A stretch of 59,264 nucleotides of DNA. Origin: Lentisphaerota bacterium. GTDB taxonomy: Bacteria; Verrucomicrobiota; Lentisphaeria; Victivallales; Victivallaceae. The position numbers were made by a program, and so were the translations under genes. The stretch's first letter is position 1, and each line of letters opens with the position of its first letter. Positions 51,338 through 58,483 of this stretch are shown piece after piece. Where the stretch lies: positions 1-59,264 of the forward strand of contig SUVY01000009.1 of the NCBI GenBank assembly GCA_015061775.1, read 5' to 3'. A model generated the notes under the pieces. That model was not told where the DNA came from and did not search any database. It saw nothing but the letters and a program-made list of their open reading frames with translations.

Positions 51338-51365
51338 TTGACATCTGAGTAAAAAGATATATATT
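51338..51365 (+). promoter_or_regulatory. Promoter of tRNA-Phe
   Basis: Consensus TTGACA (51338-51343), then TATATT at 51360-51365 (16-nt spacer; TATTAT with 18 nt is also possible). Confidence 0.75.
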
Positions 51366-51380
51366 ATACACATACAAGGT

Positions 51381-51456
51381 GGCAGGTTAGCTCAGTCGGT
51401 AGAGCAGGGGACTGAAAATCCCCGTGTCCCCAGTTCGATTCTGGGACCGGCCACCA
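51381..51456 (+). tRNA. tRNA-Phe (anticodon GAA), acceptor stem with one mismatch
   Basis: 76 nt folding as a full cloverleaf: D-stem GCTC/GAGC, anticodon stem GGGGA/TCCCC with loop CTGAAAA, variable loop GTGTC, T-stem CCCAG/CTGGG with loop TTCGATT, encoded CCA. The acceptor stem GGCAGGT/ACCGGCC has an A4-G69 mismatch while the other six pairs are canonical. The 3' side may derive from an integrated element. Confidence 0.93.
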
Positions 51457-51488
51457 TTTTTTTGCCTTTTTTCTGAAGGCAAAAAAAC

Positions 51489-51671
51489 ATGAAGCCTAAA
51501 AAGGCTTCGCTTCATGCACCTAAGGTGTGCTTCATGGCACGCAGTGCCGCTTCATACGCCGCCAGGCGTGCTTCATAAATCCGCCTTTTCAGATGAAGCA
51601 GCTCCACTTTGTTCCGCTATGAAGCATTTGCTGTTCGCAAATATGAAGCACAAGCGTCTTAAGCCGCTTGT
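51489..51671. repeat. Array of palindromes separated by GCTTCAT / ATGAAGC heptamers
   Basis: GCTTCAT occurs at 51509, 51529, 51549 and 51570; its complement ATGAAGC at 51489, 51593, 51619 and 51643. Six of the seven spacers are distinct sequences, and most are short hairpins: GAAGCC/GGCTTC, GCACC/GGTGT, GGCAC/GTGCC, ACGCC/GGCGT, ATTTGC/GCAAAT and ACAAGCG/CGCTTGT. The central spacer 51577-51592 is not palindromic, and 51600-51618 only weakly so. The heptamer flips orientation around this centre. It is not a CRISPR (repeats too short, spacers self-complementary). Confidence 0.88.
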
Positions 51672-51700: not shown

Positions 51701-51725
51701 GCCAGTCAAACCGACTGGCTTTTTT
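51701..51725 (+). terminator. Intrinsic terminator downstream of the palindrome array
   Basis: GCCAGTC (51701-51707) pairs with GACTGGC (51713-51719), followed by six T. No protein gene precedes it, so it probably ends a transcript from the tRNA promoter or across the array. Confidence 0.8.
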
Positions 51726-52066: not shown

Positions 52067-54115
52067 ATGGAACGTTTTTTTTACCAAAATAATATTACTG
52101 GATTTCTTGCGGATTCCGAGGATACCATTCTTGGAGCTTTAGCGAGAAACAACTCTTTTGATTTGGTAGATTTACAGCGTAATGCTTGGCTTTATGAAAT
52201 TACTTTTCTGAAAAATCTCTTGCGTAAAGAAAGTTCCGGGCATATAATATTTGAATATTCAATTCCCCGCTTGGGCAAGCGTATTGATGCAGTTTTATTG
52301 CTTCATGGCATTATTTTTGTCTTGGAGTTCAAGGTAGGAGCAAAAGAATTTTTGCGGCAGGACTTGGAACAAGTATGGGATTATGCTCTTGACTTGAAAA
52401 ATTTCCATGAAGCCAGTCGGAACTTGACTATCGTTCCGATATTGGTTGCAACAGATGCAGATAGCCCATCTGTCTGTAAAGAGGTTTCCCAGTACGACGA
52501 TCAGGTGTTTGAGCCAATTCTTTCCAATGCTGAGAGTTTATCTTCAACTATTGCTCAATTTGTGGAAGAGTATTCTACTAATAAAGATTTAAGTCGCTGG
52601 GTATTCAGCCGCTATATGCCAACACCCACTATTATTCAGGCTGCCAGTTCTCTCTATTTGAATCACTCCGTTGCTGATATTACTAAAACAGAAGCCTCCG
52701 GAGAAAATTTGCAGCGAACCAGTGAATTTGTAATGAATGTTATTGATCACACCAGAACTAATGGCGAAAAATCCATTTGCTTTGTCACCGGCGTCCCTGG
52801 CGCTGGCAAAACTCTGGTTGGTTTGAATATCGCTGTTCGGCAGTTTGAGAAAAAAGATTTGGCAGTTTACCTTTCCGGAAATCAGCCATTGGTATCGGTT
52901 TTAAGTGAAGCATTGGCGCGAGACAAAAAACGTCAGGAAGAAGAACGAAATCCCGGTGTGCGCTACAATTTGACAGAAGCTCGCAGAAATGTGAAATCTT
53001 TTATTCAGATAGTCCACCATTACCGTGATGTGACTTTGAATAAATTGAAAAAGCCGATAGTTAACGGCGTTTTGGAAATTGATCCAGCAAAAGTCGATAA
53101 GCATCAGGATGACGGCTACTCCGAAGTTGAGCATGTGGCAATCTTTGACGAGGCGCAGAGGGCGTGGACAAAAGAACATTTGGCGAATTGGCTTAACCGT
53201 AAAAAAGGTATTTCCGGCTTCCCCATGTCAGAACCGGAATTTTTGATTTGGTCGTTGAATTTGCGAGAAGATTGGGCTGTTGTGATTTGCTTGGTCGGCG
53301 GCGGACAGGAAATCAATACTGGAGAAGCTGGAATTGGTGAATGGTTGCGGGCAATCAATGCAAATTTCCCCGATTGGAACGTGTTTATTTCCGATCAGTT
53401 AACTGGTAAAGAGTACGCAGAGGGGGAGCTTGAAGATTTGTTGCAAGCTAACGATCATGTTGCACGCAGCTCCAATTTGCACTTGGATGTTTCTATGCGT
53501 TCATTCAGAGCAGAACAACTTTCAAACTTTGTGCATCACTTATTAGAGGGAAATGTTTCGCAAGCACAGACTCTTTTGGCAACGCTTAAAGACAAATATC
53601 CGATTGTGATAACTCGTGATCTCAACGCCGCAAAAAATTGGTTGCGCAAGCAAAAACGCGGTACGGAACGTTACGGTATGGTGGTTTCATCACAGGCCCA
53701 GCGTTTACGCCCATTAGCGATTGATGTGCGCTGCAAGCCCGACACGGTGCATTGGTTTTTGGATGATATTACGGATATTCGTTCGTCCTTGTTCCTCGAA
53801 GATGCAGCGTCGGAGTTTGATGTGCAAGGTTTGGAATTGGATTGGACTTGTCTTGTTTGGGATGGGGACTTGCGCAGAAAAAATGACACTTGGCAAAATT
53901 TTTCTTTTACCGGTAATAAGTGGCTGAATATTCGTTCTGAAGAGCGCAAGGCATATCAAATTAACGCCTACCGAGTGTTGCTTACGCGAGCAAGACAGGG
54001 AATGGTTATCTGTGTGCCAGAAGGCAATCCTGAAGATGCTACCAGTCAACCGGAGTTTTACGACGGTACTTATGAATACTTCAAACAAATCGGGCTTGAT
54101 GAAATTGGAAACTGA
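52067..54115 (+). CDS. PD-(D/E)XK nuclease fused to SF1 helicase (DUF2075/Schlafen-like)
   Basis: 682 residues. The N-terminal domain has PD-(D/E)XK residues: Asp74 in KRIDAV, Glu87 and Lys89 in VLEFKVG, followed by the helix DLEQVWDYALDLKNFH. The helicase follows: Walker A GVPGAGKT (242-249), motif Ia-like YLSGNQPLV, DEAQ box IFDEAQRAW (361-364), motif III-like CLVGGGQEINTG and motif VI YRVLLTRARQGMVI near 640. This matches the DUF2075 helicase family seen in defence loci. It likely senses or unwinds nucleic acid and cuts it. AT-rich compared with flanking genes; its last 17 nt overlap the next gene. Confidence 0.85.
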   Translation: MERFFYQNNITGFLADSEDTILGALARNNSFDLVDLQRNAWLYEITFLKNLLRKESSGHIIFEYSIPRLGKRIDAVLLLHGIIFVLEFKVGAKEFLRQDLEQVWDYALDLKNFHEASRNLTIVPILVATDADSPSVCKEVSQYDDQVFEPILSNAESLSSTIAQFVEEYSTNKDLSRWVFSRYMPTPTIIQAASSLYLNHSVADITKTEASGENLQRTSEFVMNVIDHTRTNGEKSICFVTGVPGAGKTLVGLNIAVRQFEKKDLAVYLSGNQPLVSVLSEALARDKKRQEEERNPGVRYNLTEARRNVKSFIQIVHHYRDVTLNKLKKPIVNGVLEIDPAKVDKHQDDGYSEVEHVAIFDEAQRAWTKEHLANWLNRKKGISGFPMSEPEFLIWSLNLREDWAVVICLVGGGQEINTGEAGIGEWLRAINANFPDWNVFISDQLTGKEYAEGELEDLLQANDHVARSSNLHLDVSMRSFRAEQLSNFVHHLLEGNVSQAQTLLATLKDKYPIVITRDLNAAKNWLRKQKRGTERYGMVVSSQAQRLRPLAIDVRCKPDTVHWFLDDITDIRSSLFLEDAASEFDVQGLELDWTCLVWDGDLRRKNDTWQNFSFTGNKWLNIRSEERKAYQINAYRVLLTRARQGMVICVPEGNPEDATSQPEFYDGTYEYFKQIGLDEIGN

Positions 54116-56396
54116 ACTTTGCAATATGTGTATGGTTACTGATCCGGAAGGGCGGGTGTTGGTGCAAGAGAGATTGCCGAAGCCGTCGAATCCGTGGTCG
54201 GGATTGACTTTCCCCGGGGGACACGTTGAGCCGGGGGAAACGGTTATGGCTTCGGTGATCCGGGAGGTTCAGGAGGAGACGGGACTGATCGTTTCAAACT
54301 TGCAGAATTGCGGATATATTCAGTGGTATAATCCCATTAAACAGTCGCAGTATTTTGTCTTTCTTTTCAAAACCAGTACCTTTTCCGGAGAACTGACCGG
54401 TTCCGTTGAGGGCAACGTCAAGTGGATGACTTTAGATGAAATGCTTTCCGGGGAACTCGCTCCCAACATGACCAAATACCTCGCCGTCTTCCAAAACGAA
54501 AACATCCCCCAGGCGTATGGCATTTCTGGCAAAGGGTTGAATTTAATAGATAATAATGGGGGAAGATATACAAATATGAATGCTTCAAGCAGTCCAATTG
54601 GTAATGAAAATAAAAAAATTGGTCAAATTTCTTTGACTGATTTATGTAACGGAAAATATGAATTTATTATTCCTACTTATCAACGTGGATATCGTTGGCG
54701 CACTAAACATGTTGAAGCTTTGATCAATGATCTTGCATCTATTCCCAAAAATAAAACCTATTGTTTACAGCCGATAGTACTGCAGAAAAACAAAAATGGA
54801 AATGGTTTTCTTGTAGTCGATGGTCAGCAGCGGTTAACGACATTGATGTTGCTGCTCAAGGCTTGGGATGTTGAGCATTTTGGGGGAATGGAACCGGAAA
54901 ATAAGCAGGAAAAACAAGGTGTTTTAAATGAGGCTTGTCGACAAAATACGACAAATATTGCGAAAAATACTGAAGATAAAAATAAAAACGAAATCAAAGG
55001 AAAGTTAGATAAGATATTTTTTATTTGGTATTTGCTGGATGATGATGAAGATGGTCATGCCGCTTTTCAGCGGTTGAATTCAGGAAAGATACCTTTGACC
55101 AGTTCTGAATTGATCCGGGCAAAACTGGTAGGTCCCGGATGCGCCAATCGTTATGAATTAGCAGCTGAGTGGGAACGCATTGAACAGCGTTTGCGCGATG
55201 ATCGCTTCTGGTTTATGTTCAATGATAAAGCGTCAGAAAGTTTTACCCGTATTGACAAGCTTTTTGAAATCATTACCAATACCGAAGAAAAAGTCAAATT
55301 TGATCGGCTTGCTCCATATTATGCCGTAGAGAAAAATGATACGGAATCATGGTGGGAAAAGTTGCTTAATCTTTTTTGGATGTTGGAACAATGCTACAAC
55401 GATGTGGAACTTTATCACTATATCGGATGGCTTAGACATTTCCGTAATTGGCAATTCCATTCTATATATGATATATACCGGAAAGATAAAAAAATTTTTA
55501 CTCAAATGCTGCAGCAGGAGATAGTAAAGGCTCTCAGGCTTCAAAAAGATGATGGTTCTCTAAATATTGATGAGTTTAATTATGATACCGATAAATCAAT
55601 TCTACGCAGTTTCTTTGTTCTTCTTAATATCGAAAGCTTGAATACCAAAGTTCGATGCAAAGATGAAAAGTCCAGAAAACGCAACGAATACGAACGTTTT
55701 CCCTTTGACCTTTATGCCAATTTATCATGGGATATTGAACACATAGATTCACATACCAATAATCCGATGGATGACCCGGCGGAACAAGTAGAGTGGGCAA
55801 TTGAAACTTATCTGGAAAGCAAAGATAAAACGAAAACGATTCTTAACTGGTTACAGCATTGCAATGAGCAAAAATATATAGAGGAGAAAAAGAAGGTTGT
55901 CGCGAAGATTTCAGGATACAATAATGATGAATCGAAAAATAAAGATAAAGATCTTTTAACATGGTTAAGAAAAACACAAAAAGAAGATTATCTGAAATTT
56001 TTTAATATCGAAACGAACAATGAAAGTACTCTGGATTTTAAAGATGTATATAAAGATTATATAAATGAATATTGTAAAAACTGTATAAATGATGATGACA
56101 AAAATCAAATAGGAAATCTCACCTTGCTGGATTATCATACCAATCGCAGTTATCACAATGCAATTTTTCCACGAAAGCGGCGAACGATTATTGAAACCGA
56201 TCAAACTTGTACCGATGATACCTTTATACCTCCTTGCACCAGGAATGTTTTTACCAAGTATTATACTCAAATGGCAGTGTCCATAACTCAATGGACACTG
56301 CAGGATGCTGATTCTTACCGCAATGCGATCGTAGAAACTTTTGCCAGATTGATTAAGGCGGCAGGCTATAAGATTAAAAAGGATAATGAAAAATGA
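54099..56396 (+). CDS. NUDIX hydrolase fused to DUF262-DUF1524 (GmrSD-like)
   Basis: 765 residues from the ATG at 54099. Residues 1-140 form a complete NUDIX hydrolase of the 8-oxo-dGTP-diphosphatase type; the box GX5EX7REUXEEXGU is exact at 41-63 (GGHVEPGE...REVQEETGL). From about 174 comes DUF262: IPTYQRGYRW (191-200) and the NTPase/nicking motif DGQQRLTTL (241-249), then FQRLNSGKIPLTSSELIRA. Near 543 the DUF1524 HNH-type nuclease begins (WDIEHIDSHTNN), with NLTLLDYHTNRSYHNAIFPRKRR near 670. GmrSD enzymes cut modified phage DNA. The NUDIX part has higher GC than the remainder. Its stop overlaps the next gene by ATGA. Confidence 0.85.
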   Translation: MKLETELCNMCMVTDPEGRVLVQERLPKPSNPWSGLTFPGGHVEPGETVMASVIREVQEETGLIVSNLQNCGYIQWYNPIKQSQYFVFLFKTSTFSGELTGSVEGNVKWMTLDEMLSGELAPNMTKYLAVFQNENIPQAYGISGKGLNLIDNNGGRYTNMNASSSPIGNENKKIGQISLTDLCNGKYEFIIPTYQRGYRWRTKHVEALINDLASIPKNKTYCLQPIVLQKNKNGNGFLVVDGQQRLTTLMLLLKAWDVEHFGGMEPENKQEKQGVLNEACRQNTTNIAKNTEDKNKNEIKGKLDKIFFIWYLLDDDEDGHAAFQRLNSGKIPLTSSELIRAKLVGPGCANRYELAAEWERIEQRLRDDRFWFMFNDKASESFTRIDKLFEIITNTEEKVKFDRLAPYYAVEKNDTESWWEKLLNLFWMLEQCYNDVELYHYIGWLRHFRNWQFHSIYDIYRKDKKIFTQMLQQEIVKALRLQKDDGSLNIDEFNYDTDKSILRSFFVLLNIESLNTKVRCKDEKSRKRNEYERFPFDLYANLSWDIEHIDSHTNNPMDDPAEQVEWAIETYLESKDKTKTILNWLQHCNEQKYIEEKKKVVAKISGYNNDESKNKDKDLLTWLRKTQKEDYLKFFNIETNNESTLDFKDVYKDYINEYCKNCINDDDKNQIGNLTLLDYHTNRSYHNAIFPRKRRTIIETDQTCTDDTFIPPCTRNVFTKYYTQMAVSITQWTLQDADSYRNAIVETFARLIKAAGYKIKKDNEK
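54558..54578 (+). promoter_or_regulatory. Possible internal ribosome site and start for DUF262-DUF1524 alone
   Basis: GGGGGAAG at 54558-54565 precedes an in-frame ATG at 54576 with about 10-nt spacing, exactly in the linker between NUDIX and DUF262. A second product of 606 residues without NUDIX could be made. Confidence 0.4.
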
Positions 56397-58483
56397 GCGA
56401 GAATAACTATCTCAAAAATATAAATTTTGTCGATTTTATGGCAGATAACCAGGTTGTTATTCCGCTGATTCAGAGAGAATATGCTCAGGGAAGGAATAAT
56501 GCACAGGGAGAAGAAGTTCGCAAGAATTTTGTCCCGGAATTGATCAAGGTATTAACCGGAGAGAAAGAATCATTAAAACTGGATTTTGTCTTTGGTGTAA
56601 AGGAAGATGGAACATTTATTCCGCTGGATGGCCAACAGCGATTGACTACTTTACTTTTATTGCACTGGTATTTCGGAGCGCCCCAAGGGAAAAAGTGGTC
56701 TTTCTCATACGAATCCCGGCGGATGGCAAACTCTTTTACAATGGAAGTATTAGCCAATTCATATGATAGAAAAGAGGATGAGATTCCTTCTGATTGGATA
56801 AAAAAACAGGAATGGTTTTTTGAAAACTGGTTGACCGATCCCACTGTAAGCGGTATGCTGCTGATGCTGGATGAGATTCATGAGAAGGCAAAAAGCAAAA
56901 ATTGCGACGAAAATAATCTCGAAAAAATAACCTTTTATCTCTACCCCATTGAGCAATTGGATGCTGATAACGCATATACAAAAATGAATGCCAGAGGAGA
57001 ACCGCTGACCGAATGGGAAAACATAAAAGCATTGCTGGATAAAAAAGTGCAGGAATTTTGCTCTACAGATAATCCTGCATTGTGTACGCAAAAAACTTGT
57101 TCATTATCTCAGTGGTTGATGAATCTTGATGGGGATTGGTTATCCAAATTGGAGGAATACGCAAGTTTAAATACGGATAACCTACGTGATGATAAAAGTT
57201 TGGAGTCGGCTATCAAAAAAATTAACTGTGCGTTCCGCAATATTTTTGATTTGGCAGTTTGTATTGATCTGGCAAATAAGATCAATAAAAGCCGCGATAA
57301 AGAAGAAAAGAATGATATTGCTGAAAATATCTCAATTTTTCATTCGCATCAAGCGTTGTTAAGTGATTATAAAAAACAAGTTACCAGGCAAACATTTGAA
57401 ATCGCCACAGATTTGTTTCACTCTCTTTGCAACAGACAGACTGTCCTCTCCCAAGGCTGGACTAAAGATCGTTCCAGTAACTGTCTTTGGGGGGACGGTG
57501 AAGATGATGAAGAATTTACAAAAGATTTTCTTTTTAACGAAAAAGCCAGTTACGATAACAGTGTAAGATTTTTTGCGCTTTCTTTGAGTTGCGATGAAAA
57601 TAAACGAGTTATCAGAGTGATATTGAATTTGCTGGATAATAGTGACGCCATTGGCAAAGATAGTTTTGCTCAAGTTATTATCGGAATATCAAAATTAATT
57701 TCAGATGACCTCTCGGAAGAAGTTTTGAAATCATTGACCTTTTTTAACACCAGACAAATTGAAGAAGAGATTAATAAATATAAAAATGCTGATGATTCGT
57801 GGTTTAAATTTGAAAAACATCCGTTATTGTACGGCAGCATCGGCTTCCTTTGGGATGGAGAAAAATTCAGCAACGATCGTTATAAATTCTTTGATAAGAC
57901 ATTTAATATAGACAAAACATGGCAGCCTGACCGATTTTATGAGTTGCTGAACTATTACAATGAAAACTTAACGGCTGCAGTTAATGTTCCTGGAGAAGAT
58001 GCAACGAAATGGCGAAAACTTTTTAAACAGAAAGATGCACGAGAAGCTTTTGCGCGTATGGCAAATCCAAATCGCCAAGAGCAGATTATTTCGCCGCAAT
58101 GGATTGAGTTTTTCGTTAAGCATAAGGTGAATAATTACAGGTTAGTACCTTATGGTTCGGACATATATGACTATAATACCGATTATAAAATATCCGGAAA
58201 TGCAGTGCGTTTAAATTATAAATCTGCCGAATTAAAATTGTTAGAGATAATTACTCCATCGTATTTGTGTTTCGGACAATCGGAAGCTAAGTTGAACTTG
58301 GAAAAATGCGAATGCAAATGCAAATGCGAATGCAAATGGTGTGGAAATATCTCCGACCAGCAAAAGCAGACAGCAAAAATAAAGCTTCAGGAATTCAGGG
58401 ACGGCAAGTACACGATTTATGATGATAAAGATAACGCTATAGGGACATTGATCCCGCAAGCTGATGATGCGGAAAAATCGTAA
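56393..58483 (+). CDS. Second DUF262 protein without HNH domain
   Basis: 696 residues. The N-terminal DUF262 signature is present: VIPLIQREYAQGR and PLDGQQRLTTLLLLHWY, with YTKMNARGEPLTEWENIKALLDKK as the family's second landmark. No DUF1524 HNH motif is visible; the C-terminal half is a helical region with no recognised domain, ending in a Cys/Glu/Lys microsatellite-coded segment. It probably forms a complex or works in parallel with the preceding DUF262-DUF1524 protein. The ATGA overlap indicates translational coupling. Base composition is AT-rich like the two genes before it. Confidence 0.82.
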   Translation: MSENNYLKNINFVDFMADNQVVIPLIQREYAQGRNNAQGEEVRKNFVPELIKVLTGEKESLKLDFVFGVKEDGTFIPLDGQQRLTTLLLLHWYFGAPQGKKWSFSYESRRMANSFTMEVLANSYDRKEDEIPSDWIKKQEWFFENWLTDPTVSGMLLMLDEIHEKAKSKNCDENNLEKITFYLYPIEQLDADNAYTKMNARGEPLTEWENIKALLDKKVQEFCSTDNPALCTQKTCSLSQWLMNLDGDWLSKLEEYASLNTDNLRDDKSLESAIKKINCAFRNIFDLAVCIDLANKINKSRDKEEKNDIAENISIFHSHQALLSDYKKQVTRQTFEIATDLFHSLCNRQTVLSQGWTKDRSSNCLWGDGEDDEEFTKDFLFNEKASYDNSVRFFALSLSCDENKRVIRVILNLLDNSDAIGKDSFAQVIIGISKLISDDLSEEVLKSLTFFNTRQIEEEINKYKNADDSWFKFEKHPLLYGSIGFLWDGEKFSNDRYKFFDKTFNIDKTWQPDRFYELLNYYNENLTAAVNVPGEDATKWRKLFKQKDAREAFARMANPNRQEQIISPQWIEFFVKHKVNNYRLVPYGSDIYDYNTDYKISGNAVRLNYKSAELKLLEIITPSYLCFGQSEAKLNLEKCECKCKCECKWCGNISDQQKQTAKIKLQEFRDGKYTIYDDKDNAIGTLIPQADDAEKS
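58307..58336 (+). repeat. Hexanucleotide microsatellite inside the second DUF262 gene
   Basis: Five tandem copies of TGCRAA, encoding alternating Cys and Glu/Lys (CECKCKCECK), followed by WCG. Slippage would add or remove residue pairs without a frameshift. Confidence 0.8.

Follow-up and report, generated by a model that had tools for sequence, protein, structure and literature searches.

In a gut bacterium of the Lentisphaerota, the tRNA-Phe gene is followed by a mirror-symmetric row of hairpins at positions 51489-51671 of the window, by which we mean the whole stretch of 59,264 nucleotides that was analysed. The hairpins differ from one another in sequence and are held apart by a heptamer, which reads GCTTCAT in one part of the row and ATGAAGC in the other. 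The question raised by this locus is what kind of DNA keeps its self-complementarity while its sequence varies, and whether it belongs to a known class of repeats, encodes an RNA, or is an element of another kind.

Anatomy of the array behind tRNA-Phe

The heptamers start at 51489 (S0, ATGAAGC), at 51509, 51529, 51549 and 51570 (S1 to S4, GCTTCAT), and at 51593, 51619 and 51643 (S5 to S7, ATGAAGC). There are thus eight copies in 161 bp of the array, compared with 12 in the other 59 kb of the window. The preliminary description had reported heptamers separating hairpins at a spacing of 20-26 nt, with a switch of orientation around 51577-51592, and all of this was confirmed, the spacing being counted from heptamer start to heptamer start. 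It had also called the hairpins mostly perfect. This holds for the left ones, which are near-perfect (GCACC-TAA-GGTGT, GGCAC-GCA-GTGCC and ACGCC-GCCA-GGCGT), but the right ones are larger and less perfect; in one of these, AGCTCCACTTTGTTCCGCT, the stem is interrupted by a symmetric internal loop, TCC/TCC (GGA/GGA on the opposite strand). The array folds beyond chance on both strands (z = -6.65 on the plus and -4.78 on the minus strand), and none of 200 shuffled sequences folded as well.

The host site, tRNA-Phe (GAA), lies at 51381-51456 on the plus strand and was identified by ARAGORN, with 64.2 bits for the Rfam tRNA model. The gene and the array are enclosed by a sigma-70-like promoter site (51338-51365, plus strand, TTGACA-16-TATATT), found by a consensus scan, and by the intrinsic terminator of the tRNA-Phe unit (51701-51725, plus strand, GCCAGTC-AAACC-GACTGGC-TTTTTT). 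Between the tRNA and the first heptamer, a junction hairpin extends from the tRNA 3' end (51457-51487, plus strand, T7-GCCTT..AAGGC-A7) and forms a 12-nt perfect inverted repeat. We take it as the left boundary of the copied unit, because the homology between copies begins at the tRNA 3' end. The feature begins earlier than had been supposed, at this poly-T/poly-A hairpin.

The first hairpin (51489-51508, plus strand) consists of the heptamer S0 (51489-51495) and a segment that we call the key, CTAAAAAGGC (51496-51505). It is followed by the near half (51509-51576, plus strand), in which S1 to S4 alternate with hairpins at 51516-51528, 51536-51548 and 51556-51569, then by the centre (51577-51592, plus strand), and finally by the inverted far half (51593-51671, minus strand) with S5 to S7 and hairpins at 51600-51618, 51626-51642 and 51650-51671. 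The centre had been described as non-palindromic, and the heptamers do invert around it, but it is not inert: its segment 51583-51592, the key-prime GCCTTTTCAG, is complementary to the key at nine of ten positions.

The same plan was found in about 55 arrays of the genus, the family and the order. It runs from the CCA end of the tRNA through the junction hairpin, S0, the key, S1 to S4 with three hairpins, and a centre ending in the key-prime, to S5 to S7 with three further hairpins. Over 56 arrays, key and key-prime covary, the kind of evidence that the preliminary description had called for, with at least four key types: CTGAAAA (28 arrays), CGTCAGG (13), CTGCAAG (2) and CTGTCAA (2). The observed score was reached in 0 of 10,000 permutations, a result that is inflated by shared descent, yet the key types span different tRNAs and species.

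The hairpins behave as modules that swap places between arrays, drawn from a pool of 161 distinct spacers in the Lentisphaeria, in which many stems are compensated. In Clostridia, the heptamer itself varies by locus and the architecture stays constant. These data agreed with the earlier view that structure is kept while sequence varies. A small palindromic insert (ACTTGGCACGGCGTAGCCCGCAGGGCGAAGACGG and variants) was also observed nested within arrays at L173, L051, L076, L368 and L344.

Copies at other tRNA genes and in other bacteria

A DNA search of the same genome gave 15 matches and a three-heptamer pattern gave 28. All 28 pattern matches fall into eight symmetric arrays. Every array has its own tRNA gene (Phe, His, Pro, Leu, Val, Gln, Ser and Pro) and lies no more than about 35 bp beyond the 3' end of it. 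The association with tRNA genes, which had been put forward for checking, is systematic. The arrays behind tRNA-Leu and tRNA-Gln share 98% identity over 244 nt, and their homology begins directly after the tRNA; between the window array and that of tRNA-His, the identity is 91%. That nearly the same array occurs behind different tRNAs in one genome supports the mobility of the element. Where the tRNA is Ser, Val, Pro or Ala, the junction hairpin repeats the 3' end of that tRNA in inverted orientation.

Orthologous tRNA-Phe genes within the genus carry no array, an array of the GCTTCAT type or one of a CTTCAC type. At the tRNA-Phe of another species (L360), which is array-less, a terminator similar to the one found beyond the array in the window follows directly after the tRNA. 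The CTTCAC/GTGAAG separators define a sister family with its own key pair (GCAAGGC/GCCTTGC) at tRNA-Phe and tRNA-Ser (L342, L343, L344, L350, L358, L508, L513 and L515). In the genome of the window bacterium, a second set of arrays (L014 and L017) also has these separators. At the tRNA-Phe genes of L351, L352 and L357, the 3' end of the tRNA is directly repeated and its 5' half recurs in inverted orientation farther downstream, possibly as a remnant of another integrated element. The region that adjoins the array in the window (52067-58483) holds three large genes, by eye one nuclease-ATPase and two DUF262-like genes, which may form a defence island.

When 388 Verrucomicrobiota genomes were searched with the pattern, 36 matched, mainly in the same family and order and in one family of another class, compared with three for a reversed control pattern. 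In other Lentisphaeria genomes and in Clostridia (Bacillota), most array copies lie downstream of tRNA or tmRNA genes. An exact scan of species genomes also located Clostridia arrays with the same heptamer, 3' of tRNA operons and beyond the terminator, at Lys, Val, Ser, Asn, Cys, Ser and Tyr sites. Their order is ATGAAGC half, centre, GCTTCAT half, which is opposite to that of the Lentisphaeria relative to the tRNA. In Clostridia, the separator is locus-specific and the constant plan consists of a pairing arm, three hairpins, a second pairing arm and an inverted half. Because the separator order is opposite in the two phyla, common descent rests on the architecture, the linked S23 gene (see below) and the shape of the far-half hairpins, and not on alignable sequence. 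An exact-pattern scan of viral contigs gave matches, none of them with two palindromic spacers.

The location of most arrays 3' of tRNA or tmRNA genes and beside terminators in two phyla could indicate a functional tRNA 3'-trailer or an insulator, serving in processing, termination or as a barrier between the tRNA unit and its neighbours. However, most of the 44 tRNA genes of this genome have no GCTTCAT array, and the orthologous tRNAs of related species are array-less or carry another array family. Arrays also occur away from tRNAs, and such a function is very improbable. These latter arrays are one-sided heptamer-hairpin arrays inserted within the part of prepilin-like genes that codes for FTLIELL (L080-L096, L133 and L163); they are in frame by eye, flanked by a second FTLIELL copy and near-identical between species. 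Rickettsia palindromic elements are palindromes that insert in frame in genes, and the prepilin arrays resemble them in this respect. The present family is different in that it occurs mainly at tRNA 3' flanks and has several separated hairpins instead of one palindrome.

The preliminary description had held that the array is neither CRISPR nor REP, and the tests made here upheld this. A CRISPR identity was rejected, since the repeats invert and the spacers are palindromes reused between arrays. The likeness to REP, BIME and REPIN sequences with their RAYT transposases is closer, as these are also dispersed, non-autonomous hairpin elements in inverted doublets. In REP families, however, the palindrome sequence is kept, carries a GTAG or CGTC tag and is moved by a Y1 transposase, whereas the present arrays are tagless, with 161 different spacers between the same heptamers. 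Y1 transposases (PF01797) were found in just 11 of 34 congeners with no relation to array content, and the array-bearing genomes G015, G020, G031 and G002 have none; a REP/RAYT identity was rejected on this survey. Arrays with this heptamer do exist elsewhere, and they are not decayed copies of a known repeat; the nearest known sequence is the orphan Gut-1 motif, which corresponds to half an array only. In the open-licence PMC literature, we found no account of hairpin arrays near tRNA genes, of S23 with repeats, or of heptanucleotide repeats. On the literature searched, the window array is a member of a family of mobile-looking post-tRNA elements, present in two phyla, that had not been recognised before.

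The Gut-1 RNA and the strand preference of the hairpins

The near half of the window array, read on the minus strand, aligns to the whole Gut-1 model (Rfam RF01706, positions 1-77) with 27.3 bits, below the gathering cut-off of 50, and many sister arrays score 25-46 bits, the best in the order of the window bacterium reaching 39 bits. The Gut-1 consensus has three hairpins with the separator GUGAAAU, and the near half likewise has three hairpins in a row, set apart by a short separator that recurs, a plan that is also present at genuine Gut-1 loci. Both come from gut bacteria. They are different in that the separator is (G)UGAAAU in Gut-1 and ATGAAGC in the window, and in that Gut-1 as defined is one half only, with no key-prime, far half, tRNA context or S23. 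The authors of Gut-1 knew it only from human gut sequence and graded it as a certain RNA (PMC2864571). Our search located Gut-1 above the cut-off in 87 of 245 genomes of the order of one Clostridia carrier. Most of the 25 loci inspected lie downstream of a tRNA or an apparent tmRNA 3' end, and many have a key pair, TAAATCCACCC ... GGGTGGATTTA, and an inverted ATTTCAC far half. As these loci have the key, the centre and the inverted far half, Gut-1 is half of the same kind of element.

The perfect hairpins of the Lentisphaeria have a loop design that depends on the strand. On the GCTTCAT strand, 48 of 79 have GNA or GNNA loops, compared with 2 of 79 on the other strand, and 75 of 79 loops are closed by a C-G pair. 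Of the 48 long hairpins, those of the far half above all, 34 have GGA/GAA-type internal loops when read on the GCTTCAT strand and none when read on the other; the far half of the window array has such GA-type loops when read on this strand. The favoured design is also present in Clostridia (14 of 20 hairpins, none on the opposite strand; C-G closure in 19 of 20). In DNA, loops of the C-GNA-G and C-GNNA-G types have an unusual stability, as do tandem sheared G-A pairs. The two halves are oppositely oriented, and therefore each strand bears one half in the favoured sense. The folding energy is better for the GCTTCAT strand with DNA as well as RNA parameters, clearly in Lentisphaeria and weakly in Clostridia; as both favour the same strand, folding energies cannot separate DNA from RNA.

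These results bear on the idea that the array is a noncoding RNA, as proposed for Gut-1, produced either from a promoter of its own or when transcription from the tRNA promoter reads through, with S23 as its protein partner and the key pairing as an RNA switch between the first hairpin and a closed multi-hairpin form. The window array does have the tRNA promoter on one side and an intrinsic terminator on the other, and its fold (z = -6.7), the covarying key, the grading of Gut-1 by its authors and the strand preference obtained with RNA parameters agree with this idea. On the other hand, a single transcript would have only one half in the favoured sense, as the purine-loop and GA-type design lies on opposite strands in the two halves. 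Wobble pairs in the Lentisphaeria spacers showed no strand bias (6 G-U and 8 A-C), the Clostridia arrays are usually beyond the tRNA terminator with the separators reversed, and the turnover of hairpins and copy sites is that of a repeat and unlike a conserved gene. With the halves optimised on opposite strands and the wobble test unbiased, an RNA of fixed polarity was demoted to a rival explanation, which we regard as rather unlikely.

The S23 gene and the proposed element

The gene linked to the arrays encodes S23, a four-helix bundle protein (PF05635/TIGR02436; E values of 6e-26 and 3e-28) with a solved relative (PDB 2RLD). S23 forms pentamers and is a relative of Avd, an accessory protein of retroelements. 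Among 28 distinct S23 genes examined, 22 start 19-194 bp downstream of an array on the same strand, a sample that was partly gathered via the arrays; among the 22 are Lentisphaeria genes behind arrays of either separator type, as well as two loci from Clostridia and one from a third class. As these loci were partly selected by array, the reverse search in Clostridia gives a less biased figure: in four carrier genomes, an inverted array was present upstream of 11 of 11 S23 genes of usable length, eight of them beside a tRNA by eye. The separators at these arrays are ATGAAGC, AATGATGT, ATGATAT, GCGATAT, AGTGAAG and others, and the key pairs are 7-16 nt long and unrelated in sequence. A promoter-like sequence lies between the array and S23, indicating that the array is not merely the S23 leader. 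The window contains no S23 gene, and most array copies likewise have none.

The intervening sequences (IVS) of 23S rRNA, which have been termed selfish elements, encode S23, and the function of this protein was given as unknown (PMC4990558). The IVS, for example in Coxiella (PMC4990558), is similar to the full form proposed for the present family in being a selfish sequence with an S23 gene and inverted repeats in a stable-RNA gene region. It differs in lying inside the 23S rRNA, whereas the arrays lie beside tRNA or tmRNA and that of the window follows tRNA-Phe; in having a single stem and not a hairpin array; and in carrying S23 in its loop, whereas here S23 stands beside the array and is missing from the window copy.

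S23 genes with no array are also accompanied by repeats. Short tandem repeats were found in 19 of 34 of their flanks (7 of 90 control stretches), and for S23 genes of other phyla in 38 of 59 flanks (8 of 131 controls). The left and right repeats were inverted complements of each other in 29 of 44 pairs, compared with 21 of 162 control pairs. These repeats are locus-specific, often have a period of 7-9 and are inverted between the two sides, Nostoc included (L490-L505, L519 and L520-L549). Inverted rows of short repeats are thus common beside S23, and the hairpin arrays seem to be a more elaborate version of them.

Such flanking repeats, together with the inverted copies of the adjacent tRNA end in junction hairpins and the modular hairpins common to several arrays, might also come from a by-product at the DNA level. 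Fold-back or template-switch synthesis at tRNA and terminator hairpins would make palindromes, and recombination at the heptamers would shuffle them, with neither an element nor selection. Such a process does not readily account for the fixed plan of about 3 + 3 hairpins with its covarying key and centre, nor for the fact that the arrays of two phyla are consistently linked to a protein gene, and a mutational process need not yield the bias to GNA/GNNA loops with C-G closure on one strand. We consider this origin quite unlikely.

We favour, with a probability of roughly 55%, the reading that the window array is a solo, S23-less and slightly decayed copy of an S23-linked selfish or mobile element that copies to tRNA 3' ends. 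The full element would comprise the tRNA 3' end, a junction hairpin or terminator, the inverted hairpin array, a promoter of its own and the S23 gene. Its cis part is two inverted groups of about three hairpins each, joined by short separators, and the key in the first hairpin pairs with the key-prime at the centre and closes the near half into a multi-hairpin fold. Since the hairpins and separators vary freely while the fold is kept, we infer that the element is probably recognised by its shape on a single strand. S23 may bind the folded single strand and aid copying or insertion by a host enzyme or another enzyme, and solo copies may be mobilised in trans. An autonomous element with genes between the halves was rejected, as ordinary genes lie between neighbouring arrays, except for S23 directly downstream. 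The element could be connected to no recombinase, transposase or reverse transcriptase, and the cutting or copying enzyme was not found. The window array fails the Gut-1, IVS, REP and CRISPR tests that were run, and in our analysis it would act most like an IVS-type element, that is, a selfish element with S23 that resides in a stable-RNA gene, or like a REPIN, an inverted hairpin doublet moved in trans.

A wider reading is tentative. In a selfish class defined by its fold, S23 might recognise single strands that carry short hairpins or short tandem repeats in inverted rows, almost regardless of sequence, and drive the copying of these rows beside tRNA and tmRNA genes. If this is true, the same machinery would explain the Gut-1 RNA, the 23S rRNA IVS and the locus-specific inverted repeats, including those of the heptamer type in Nostoc.

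These findings join three loose ends, namely the orphan Gut-1 motif, the S23/IVS protein of unknown function and the palindromic repeats next to tRNA genes. Gut-1, which was metagenome-only in the literature searched, is now placed in a Clostridia order and has S23 as a candidate protein partner. The family keeps its fold and not its sequence, and is therefore missed by sequence-based repeat finders. The link between S23 and the array is directly testable by biochemistry, and if recognition by shape is true, the array behind tRNA-Phe would represent a new kind of element.
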